64,000 nucleotides of DNA from Gammaproteobacteria bacterium. GTDB lineage: Bacteria; Pseudomonadota; Gammaproteobacteria; SZUA-229. The stretch is taken from contig JAOULC010000016.1 of the NCBI GenBank assembly GCA_029882215.1, positions 1-64,000 of the forward strand, written 5' to 3'. The position numbers and the translations under genes were made by a program. Every line of letters begins with the position of its first letter. The stretch's first letter is position 1. Below, in pieces: positions 12,462 to 63,029 of this stretch. Under the pieces are notes generated by a model, which was not told where the DNA came from, made no database searches, and worked only from the letters and a program-made list of their open reading frames with translations.

Positions 12462-12492
12462 AAAAAAAAGCCCTGCTATACAGGGCTTTTTT
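12462..12492 (-). terminator. Rho-independent terminator of the barrel-protein gene
   Basis: An A-run, GCCCTG, a 5-base loop, CAGGGC and a T-run form a near-perfect stem. On the minus strand it lies 20 bases after the stop of the outer-membrane protein gene. Confidence 0.9.
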
Positions 12493-27609: not shown

Positions 27610-27816
27610 ATGCGCTCAGAAATACATCCAGAATATAATGAGATCAATGTAACGTGTAGTTGTGGCAGCACATTCGTTACAGGTTCAACTTACGGCAAAG
27701 AAGCGTTACACATTGATGTTTGCTCACAGTGTCACCCTTTTTATACCGGTAAACAAAAAGTCGTTGATACTGCTGGCCAGGTTGATAAATTCAACCGTCG
27801 CTTCGGTAAAAAATAG
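27610..27816 (+). CDS. rpmE: 50S ribosomal protein L31 (zinc type)
   Basis: A 68-residue large-subunit ribosomal protein. It keeps the zinc-type cysteines: the CSCG pair near residue 16 and [12 protein letters not shown] near residue 37, and ends with FNRRFGKK. Length is that of zinc-binding L31 rather than the cysteine-free L31B. It has a good GAGGA site. Its terminator lies inside the start of the next gene. Confidence 0.97.
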
Positions 27817-27844
27817 ATTTATTAATCTTTTTGAAGATTCACTT

Positions 27845-28669
27845 GTGAACTTTCAAAGATTAAAAATAAAAAAGGCGCTTACTACAAGCGCCTTTTTTAT
27901 TGGCTGGCTGCTTTGCGCACCACTGCAAGCCAACAGCTTCATACAGCCAAAACCAGACTGCAAAGAGTTTATCGCCACTGAAACTGCGACTGTGCGTTAT
28001 GTCCATGATGGTGACACCCTTTTTCTCAGTGACAAGCGAAAACTTCGACTGATCGGCATCGATACACCCGAGCTGGCACGCGATCATAAAAATACTGTGT
28101 CAGCGGAGCAACCATTTGCCCGCGAAGCACGCGACTTTGTGCGCCGTTTAATTTCGCAATACGGCCATCAAATCTCTTTAATGCCGGGGGTTGAGAAAAC
28201 CGACCGCTATCAGCGATGGTTATTTCATATCCGTCTGTCTGATGGCAGCTTATTACAGTCTCGTCTGCTACAGGCCGGCCTGGCTGTGGCTTATACAACT
28301 CCTCCGAACCAACTGCTCAGCAACTGCTATCAGCAAGCCGAACACGTCGCCCAACAACAAAACAAAAACATCTGGTCGGCCCCGAAATATCAAGCCATTG
28401 CCGCTGAAAAACTCCAGGCAAAACATCGTGGTTTTCACATTATCAAGGGCAAAGTCAGGCATATTGGCGAAAGCAAAAAAGCCATATGGCTCAACTTTTA
28501 TGGTAATTTTTCAGCCCGTATTGATAAGCGCGATCAGCGGTATTTTCACGACTCTCTCAATGACCTGCTGGAAAAAGAAATTACCGTACGTGGCTGGCTT
28601 CATCACGACAACAATAAAATCCGCATGACTTTACGCCACCCATCAGCGATCCGCCACACAGAAGACTAA
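27845..28669 (+). CDS. Secreted thermonuclease-family protein (SNase-like)
   Basis: A 274-residue protein with a signal peptide (KIKK, then a hydrophobic core ending at LQA, residues ~1-30). A staphylococcal-nuclease-like domain follows (~45-185): VHDGDTLFL with the metal-binding Asp, LIGIDTPEL with the catalytic Arg nearby, and KTDRYQRWLFHI in place of the usual YGR motif. The C-terminal 80 residues (KVRHIGESKKAIWLNFYGNFSARI) resemble an OB-type extension. It probably cuts extracellular or periplasmic nucleic acid. The start is inferred as a GTG 28 bases after the rpmE stop; a longer frame reaching back to 27662 runs through rpmE out of frame and is not credible. The signal peptide codons contain the rpmE terminator. 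Confidence 0.85.
   Translation: MNFQRLKIKKALTTSAFFIGWLLCAPLQANSFIQPKPDCKEFIATETATVRYVHDGDTLFLSDKRKLRLIGIDTPELARDHKNTVSAEQPFAREARDFVRRLISQYGHQISLMPGVEKTDRYQRWLFHIRLSDGSLLQSRLLQAGLAVAYTTPPNQLLSNCYQQAEHVAQQQNKNIWSAPKYQAIAAEKLQAKHRGFHIIKGKVRHIGESKKAIWLNFYGNFSARIDKRDQRYFHDSLNDLLEKEITVRGWLHHDNNKIRMTLRHPSAIRHTED
27868..27898 (+). terminator. rpmE rho-independent terminator inside the nuclease signal peptide
   Basis: A6-GGCGCTT, a 5-base loop and AAGCGCC-T6 form a perfect 13-bp hairpin with a U tract, 51 bases past the rpmE stop. The same bases encode residues ~9-18 of the nuclease signal peptide (KKALTTSAFF), so termination here would cut the nuclease message near its start. Confidence 0.88.
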
Positions 28670-28751: not shown

Positions 28752-29987
28752 ATGTCTTCTGAATTAAAGCGCGCCGCACTCGATTATCATAAAAATCCTC
28801 GACCAGGAAAGATTAGCGTCGAAACCACCAAACCTTGTGAAACTCAAATGGATTTATCACTCGCGTACACACCCGGCGTCGCTGAGCCGGTACGGGCCAT
28901 TGCCAAGCATGCTGAAGATGCGTATTTATACACAGCGAAAGGCAACCTTGTTGGTGTCATTACAGACGGCAGCGCTGTTCTTGGTTTAGGCAATGTCGGT
29001 GCTCTGGCTGGCAAACCGGTAATGGAAGGCAAGGCCGTACTGTTTAAACACTTTGCCAACATCGATGTATTTGATATCGAAGTGGATGCCGATGACCCGC
29101 AGGACTTCATTGATACCGTTGCCCGCATTGCTCCTACTTTTGGCGGTATTAACCTGGAAGACATCACTGCCCCAAAATGCTTTGAAATCGAAGAAAAGCT
29201 ACAGGAAATGCTCGATATTCCGGTCTTCCATGATGACCAGCACGGCACGGCTGTTATTATTGCTGCCGGGCTTGAAAATGCATTAAAGCTACAAGATAAG
29301 AAAATCGATCAGATTCGCGTGGTTTGTCTTGGAGCCGGTGCAGCTGGTATCGCATCGATGAAATTACTGCATGCTATGGGTGCCCCCAAAGAAAATCTGA
29401 TGATGGTCGACCGTAACGGCATTATTCATACTGGCCGTGACGATCTGAATAAATACAAACAACAGTTTGCCGTTGAAACCAATTTAAGAACACTTGCGGA
29501 TGCAATGAATGGCGCTGATGTTTTCATTGGCGTTTCGGGCCCTGATTTACTGTCAAAAGATATGCTGGCCTCTATGGCTGATAAACCGGTTATTTTTGCC
29601 CTGTCAAACCCGGACCCGGAAATCCTGCCCGAGCTGGCACACTTAACGCGCAGCGACCTGATTATGGCAACCGGCCGTAGTGACTACCCGAATCAGATCA
29701 ACAACGTTCTCGGTTTCCCGTATATTTTCCGTGGTGCACTGGATGTTCGTGCCACCAAAATAACACAGGAAATGCTGGTCGCCTGTGTCCATGCCATCAG
29801 CGCACTTTCGCACGAGCCCGTACCTAAAAAAGTTCTCGAAGCTTATGGTCTTGAGCATCTGGAGTTCGGCCCTGAATATATTATTCCAAAACCACTGGAC
29901 CCCCGTTTACTGGAGCGCGTGCCGGCTGCCGTTGCACAGGCCGCCATTGATTCAGGTGTCGCAAGGCTAGATCTGGTTAATAAATAA
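28752..29987 (+). CDS. Malic enzyme (short form)
   Basis: A 411-residue oxidative malate decarboxylase (malate to pyruvate and CO2, giving NADH or NADPH). It has the catalytic Tyr in AYTPGVAEP, the Lys in EGKAVLFKHF, the metal-binding NLEDI and FHDDQHGTA motifs, the Rossmann GAGAAGIASMK and ALSNPDPE. It matches MaeB-type enzymes but lacks their C-terminal phosphotransacetylase-like domain, so it is a stand-alone form. Cofactor preference is not readable. mdh follows after 70 bases, making a malate-centred pair. Confidence 0.92.
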   Translation: MSSELKRAALDYHKNPRPGKISVETTKPCETQMDLSLAYTPGVAEPVRAIAKHAEDAYLYTAKGNLVGVITDGSAVLGLGNVGALAGKPVMEGKAVLFKHFANIDVFDIEVDADDPQDFIDTVARIAPTFGGINLEDITAPKCFEIEEKLQEMLDIPVFHDDQHGTAVIIAAGLENALKLQDKKIDQIRVVCLGAGAAGIASMKLLHAMGAPKENLMMVDRNGIIHTGRDDLNKYKQQFAVETNLRTLADAMNGADVFIGVSGPDLLSKDMLASMADKPVIFALSNPDPEILPELAHLTRSDLIMATGRSDYPNQINNVLGFPYIFRGALDVRATKITQEMLVACVHAISALSHEPVPKKVLEAYGLEHLEFGPEYIIPKPLDPRLLERVPAAVAQAAIDSGVARLDLVNK

Positions 29988-33635: not shown

Positions 33636-33668
33636 AAAAAAGGCAGGACAATATGCCCTGCCTTTTTT
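33636..33668 (-). terminator. Rho-independent terminator between the 251-aa protein gene and the ABC1 kinase gene
   Basis: A6-GGCAGG and CCTGCC-T6 form a 12-bp stem with a 9-base loop, 18 bases past the stop of the upstream minus-strand gene. Its position rules out the longer start of the kinase gene. Confidence 0.88.
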
Positions 33669-57483: not shown

Positions 57484-57515
57484 AAAAAAGGCGTGGTAGT
57501 TTCACGCCTTTTTTT
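57484..57515. terminator. Rho-independent terminator of hppA
   Basis: A6-GGCGTG, a 7-base loop and CACGCC-T7. The stem is nearly symmetrical, so it can also end the convergent small minus-strand gene. Confidence 0.92.
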
Positions 57516-59825: not shown

Positions 59826-59855
59826 AAAAAAAGCGTCGCTAATGCGACGCTTTTT
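59826..59855. terminator. Bidirectional terminator between the sensor kinase and sat
   Basis: A7-GCGTCGC, loop TAAT and GCGACGC-T5 form a near-perfect 12-bp stem between convergent genes. Confidence 0.9.
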
Positions 59856-62996: not shown

Positions 62997-63029
62997 AAAA
63001 AAAGCACGCTCAGAAAGCGTGCTTTTTTT
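62997..63029. terminator. Bidirectional terminator between the 91-aa and 52-aa genes
   Basis: A7-GCACGCT and AGCGTGC-T7 form a perfect stem with a 5-base loop between convergent genes. Confidence 0.92.

Follow-up and report, generated by a model that had tools for sequence, protein, structure and literature searches.

A probable rpmE transcription terminator lies within the putative signal-peptide codons of a nuclease gene in many Gammaproteobacteria

We analyzed a 64-kb stretch of a gammaproteobacterial contig (64,000 nucleotides, hereafter the window), in which the genes for a ribosomal protein, a nuclease and a malic enzyme follow one another on the plus strand. The rpmE gene (27610..27816) encodes the 68-aa ribosomal protein bL31 of the zinc-binding Cys type (Pfam Ribosomal_L31, E 6e-33) and ends at a TAG stop codon (27814-27816). 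The next gene (27845..28669) opens with a GTG and encodes a 274-aa protein of the staphylococcal nuclease family that is predicted to be secreted (Pfam SNase), and the malic enzyme gene lies further downstream (28752..29987; Pfam malic and Malic_M). A hairpin resembling an intrinsic terminator of rpmE occupies 27868..27898 on the plus strand and consists of an A6 tract, a 7-bp stem, a 5-nt loop and a T6 tract. It falls within the putative signal-peptide coding segment of the nuclease (27845..27931, plus strand; KKALTTSAFFIGWLLCAPLQA), which was assigned by translation and has equivalents in relatives.

The hairpin, AAAAAAGGCGCTT-ACTAC-AAGCGCCTTTTTT, forms a perfect 13-bp stem ending in a six-T tract; its A-tract starts 51 nt, and its GC stem 57 nt, past the rpmE stop codon. 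The first-pass annotation had placed a perfect 13-bp hairpin with a T6 tract inside the signal-peptide codons, and our analysis bore out both the coordinates and the reading. Folded in context (27860-27900), the stem lengthens to 16 bp with a predicted energy of -18.9 kcal/mol, which none of 200 dinucleotide shuffles equaled (z -6.1), and the GC-rich stem-loop with a T-rich tract directly after it has the makeup of an intrinsic terminator. When the peptide of the window nuclease was held fixed and synonymous codons were chosen at random, a terminator of any kind appeared in 5 of 300 replicates, and an equally strong one in 0 of 300. The same procedure, applied to 36 loci drawn from the whole-genome set and environmental assemblies, gave 238/2400 for any terminator-like hairpin and 33/2400 for an equally strong one. 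The encoded peptide therefore does not account for the hairpin, and shuffles, synonymous re-encoding and conservation agree that it is more than chance.

As background for terminators we used the 64-kb window together with a survey of the class. Terminators in the window are mostly symmetric A-tract/T-tract hairpins (12470-12486, 57490-57508, 59833-59850 and 63004-63022), which might act in either direction. Another strong symmetric hairpin (A6...T6) lies on the minus strand at 33642-33662, after the gene at 34441-33686, and extends over the start of the following gene if its longest ORF is taken. We considered it as a second overlap of the same kind and rejected it, as the called GTG is probably too far upstream and ATG starts follow the hairpin. 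A weaker hairpin just upstream of the rpmE terminator (27825..27861, plus strand) holds the nuclease GTG in its apical part. It was likewise discarded as a candidate regulator, as its fold was matched by 16 of 200 shuffles (z -1.5) and inspection by eye found it in the same genus only.

Read from the GTG at 27845, the nuclease frame begins MNFQRLKIKKALTTSAFFIGWLLCAPLQA and continues, after the predicted cleavage point, with NSF; the hairpin spans its codons 8-18. By inspection of the translation, the signal peptide covers approximately residues 1-29, with a positive n-region, a hydrophobic core, Ala at -1 and Leu at -3, a site that is AxA-like only. A Sec signal peptide containing the hairpin is plausible on this basis. 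The next in-frame ATG, GTG or TTG lies at offset 175 past the rpmE stop codon, already in the mature domain, so that no usable in-frame start codon of these three types separates the hairpin from the mature domain in the window. The first-pass annotation had named a separate promoter downstream of the hairpin, with a start near 27991, as one finding that would speak against its reading. A consensus scan detected no sigma-70-like site between the hairpin and 27991, and the in-frame start there belongs to the mature domain.

The protein itself is a member of the staphylococcal nuclease/thermonuclease family by profile, with PF00565 covering residues 66-178 (E 8e-19; 68.5 bits against a gathering score of 21), and residues 16-150 of its mature part match staphylococcal nuclease in the PDB (~2e-10). 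We take D57, R68, D73, E76 and R124, mapped by eye, to be the catalytic set of the S. aureus enzyme, which would thus be retained. It differs from PF00565 nucleases in an extra C-terminal stretch of ~95 residues, and it scores far under the NCBIfam cut-offs for NucI and EcnA. In alignment A1, R68, E76, R124 and D55/D57 are invariant, whereas D73 of the window protein is Asn in many relatives. Again by eye, position 73 presumably corresponds to Asp40, a calcium-binding residue in the S. aureus enzyme, and the change of its IDTPE motif to INTPE in those relatives hints at altered metal use. Related nucleases encoded apart from rpmE (L058, L059, L066, L068, L076, L077 and similar loci) carry an N-terminal IYQWQDxxGxxHFSD-type stretch between signal peptide and nuclease domain, which resembles DUF4124.

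To place the overlap in a wider context, we assembled a nuclease-led sample of 108 nuclease loci from a search of 40 relatives and one genome-collection scan. The nuclease lies directly behind rpmE in 82 of these, and a terminator was detected in 76 of the 82, a lower bound given that our script overlooks a few obvious hairpins (L046, L065, L090). According to the script, 70 of the 76 loci keep the nuclease frame open across the hairpin, and 38 and 57 do so for the other two frames. A terminator predicted to sit inside an open nuclease frame is the arrangement expected of a translation-coupled attenuator. At 25 nuclease loci where no rpmE was found upstream, including those of Methylococcales, Nitrosomonas and Methylophaga, we observed no comparable embedded hairpin, and most of these genes encode a signal peptide of the ordinary kind. 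It is therefore the rpmE-nuclease junction, not the nuclease, that carries the overlap.

An rpmE-led survey of the class, which avoids the nuclease-first bias, covered 90 loci in as many genomes, mostly one per family; these were the better-scoring among 180 rpmE matches found, which tilts the sample slightly toward window-like rpmE. Within these best 90 of 180 matches, the nuclease follows rpmE in 43 genomes. The hairpin was detected in at least 36 of the 43, and in 31, representing 28 families, it lies behind a canonical start with the ORF running through it. The overlap is therefore kept in relatives, contrary to the loss in all of them that the first-pass annotation had named as speaking against its reading, and is an architecture spread over the class, not a local accident. 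Where another gene follows rpmE, the hairpin was detected in at least 21 of 47 genomes. Similar hairpins occur at some rpmE loci that lack the nuclease, which assigns the element to rpmE. Four of these cases were flagged as overlapping, two of them apparently spurious. In L143 and L159, which belong to one family, a predicted rpmE terminator lies in the signal peptide of an M48/BepA-like lipoprotein (SLCLLAGALLFLMLSACA), ~30-120 nt past the rpmE stop codon; this overlap, involving an exported protein unrelated to the nuclease, is convincing at the level of sequence.

The arrangement also has exceptions. Among 99 open-frame loci, 11 have no ATG, GTG or TTG between the rpmE stop codon and the hairpin (L004, L010, L021, L034, L048, L055 and L117 among them). 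Some of these may use CTG, ATC or ATA starts, and some begin later, one begins inside rpmE and one contains undetermined bases. In a minority of loci, such as L022, L025, L044, L045 and L107, the nuclease start lies downstream of the hairpin.

The hairpin appears to be constrained both as RNA and as reading frame. Across 21 hairpins of equal length, 99.6% of cells are paired and double changes occur at 8 of 13 pairs, giving a covariation score of 0.468, compared with 0.275 after shuffling (reached in 0 of 500) and 0.12-0.24 with the partner slid. Restriction to detected hairpins of equal length favors pairing, since detection selects for pairing and a T-tract and so inflates counts of pairs and T-codons; both covariation controls (slid and shuffled) and the synonymous re-encoding nonetheless agree. 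Two loci of the same genus illustrate the pattern: GGCGCT...AGCGCC in L004 is GGCACT...AGTGCC in L005, a G-C to A-U exchange in which both changes are synonymous (Ala GCG to GCA and Ser AGC to AGT). The peptide over the hairpin reads KKALxxSAFF in the family of the window, KKASLVGAFFVSA in Pseudomonas and KKGxxRLFL in others. These differing peptides imply that the phase in which this RNA element is read varies among lineages; each of the three possible registers between hairpin and nuclease frame occurs, and the hairpin is kept throughout. TTT is used over TTC in T-tract codons (144/169 vs 299/519), an excess that we did not rely on, as the T-tract defines the element and the argument is partly circular.

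We consider it likely that the hairpin is a leaky rpmE terminator that doubles as signal-peptide code, with a small share of transcripts extending into the nuclease gene. With the nuclease start upstream of the hairpin, one DNA segment would act as terminator and as signal-peptide code: the A-tract would supply the lysines of the n-region, the stem alanine and serine, and the T-tract the phenylalanines of the hydrophobic core. Transcription begun at the rpmE promoter would mostly halt at the hairpin in vivo and leave an abundant short rpmE mRNA, and the minority of polymerases that read through would produce the sole transcripts encoding the whole nuclease. Because the start codon precedes the hairpin, transcription from any upstream promoter has to pass through it to yield a full-length nuclease mRNA, and nuclease output is probably confined to transcripts that leak through. 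A leak of this kind, as the main source of nuclease mRNA, would fix a low, roughly constant nuclease-to-L31 ratio. The first-pass annotation had likewise seen an rpmE terminator in the nuclease signal peptide and a need for read-through, and this part of its reading holds up well; its proposal that termination is tuned by ribosomes does not find support as it was worded.

The nuclease start is weak. In the window, its Shine-Dalgarno duplex has a predicted energy of -1.0 kcal/mol, compared with -5.9 for rpmE, and the medians over loci are -2.3 and -5.9 kcal/mol (p 3e-15); only 52 of the 88 best nuclease starts are ATG. Terminated transcripts hold no stop codon for the second frame, and in the E. 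coli construct of Li et al. (2015), strong initiation on such transcripts halved expression of the upstream gene (PMC4824070). We infer that selection protecting the rpmE mRNA keeps the nuclease start weak, with the effect that most ribosomes would never reach the stop-less 3' end of a terminated rpmE transcript.

Alternatively, a ribosome that initiates on the nuclease frame, or re-initiates after rpmE, might cover the 5' arm and cause read-through, in which case nuclease transcription would track ribosome availability, as at pyrBI and ampC. The geometry is suitable: with a median of 24 nt (IQR 18-26; 29 nt in the window) from start to core stem, a ribosome a few codons in would cover the 5' arm. 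Some starts overlap the rpmE stop codon or stand 8 nt from the stem, and the hairpin is usually in the nuclease coding sequence when the nuclease adjoins rpmE. However, W48, an E. coli construct of comparable layout made by Li et al., has a terminator 30 bp past an AUG and lost only ~10% of its termination efficiency through translation, an effect kept small by the first ribosome not yet having caught up with the polymerase (PMC4824070). In that system, an upstream ribosome represses a terminator only within ~27 nt of its stop codon (PMC4824070), and the hairpin stem is mostly further than that from the rpmE stop codon (median 36 nt, 5th percentile 27 nt; 51-57 nt in the window). Given this small construct effect, the distance from the rpmE stop codon and the weak starts, any gating effect would be small by default. 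Folds of nascent RNA over 27610-27898 contained no stable competing antiterminator structure, which also argues against an attenuator of the amino-acid type. We therefore regard gating at the nuclease start as possible but tentative, and as an account of the locus unlikely.

A separate nuclease promoter within rpmE, with the hairpin attenuating the nuclease and serving rpmE as well, is very unlikely. A 9-of-12 promoter-like site does occur at 27764-27791, and a transcript carrying the nuclease start would cross the hairpin whichever promoter was used; however, such scores are near chance (10 sites found vs 6.2 +/- 2.4 expected), the site falls in rpmE coding sequence, and similar hairpins occur at some nuclease-less rpmE loci. 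Least probable of all is a passive overlap in which an inactive terminator, or one that merely stabilizes the rpmE 3' end, was overrun by a start that drifted upstream with no regulatory consequence: a symmetric A-tract/T-tract hairpin is the usual terminator form in the window and happens to encode Lys and Phe, which suit a signal peptide, but many families conserve the hairpin through compensatory and frame changes, and a terminator active at this position necessarily curbs nuclease transcription, regulated or not.

Several known systems share features with the leaky terminator that we propose. At the E. coli frd-ampC junction, the terminator of the upstream operon attenuates the downstream gene for an exported enzyme, and ribosome-linked read-through has been proposed; the ampC attenuator sits in an untranslated leader. 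The rpmE locus would resemble this case in that an upstream terminator limits a downstream exported-enzyme gene, and differs from it in having the terminator in signal-peptide codons, a ribosomal protein gene upstream and a distribution over many families. The E. coli pyrBI attenuator has an intrinsic terminator in a translated frame whose outcome can depend on the ribosome (PMC4824070), and the frame at the rpmE locus is likewise predicted to be translated. In contrast, pyrBI uses a short leader peptide with programmed pausing to sense UTP, and the rpmE locus has the signal peptide of a structural protein and no known pausing signal. The W48 construct matches the rpmE locus in order, with a gene followed by a second ORF whose AUG stands 30 bp upstream of an intrinsic terminator, but it is artificial, with the phage tR2 terminator and a short ORF, whereas the natural case leads into a 274-aa secreted enzyme. 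In Vibrio parahaemolyticus, vtrB is fed by transcription that leaks through the intrinsic terminator of the operon preceding it, a supply like that proposed here; the abstract puts that terminator downstream of the preceding operon and mentions no overlap with vtrB coding sequence (PMC10971746). In the open-access literature that we searched, on rpmE with thermonuclease and on embedded or overlapping terminators, the present arrangement was not described, although such an absence is weak evidence.

A more far-reaching idea is that the signal peptide serves across the class as a ribosome-gated antitermination device, in which a weak start or re-initiation decides whether the terminator folds. 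We hold this to be doubtful; if it were true, nuclease export would follow ribosome supply, and signal peptides in general would offer evolution a place within coding sequence to house terminators, an idea in line with the overlap in the unrelated M48 lipoprotein gene after rpmE. For annotation, the overlap means that gene callers should keep starts upstream of terminators. The loci also provide a comparative set for the interplay of ribosomes, rescue of stop-less mRNA and intrinsic termination near start codons. In summary, the rpmE-nuclease junction is an apparently natural, conserved case of a transcription stop signal inside the coding part of the gene that it limits, an arrangement kept in many bacterial families despite changes in sequence and reading frame.
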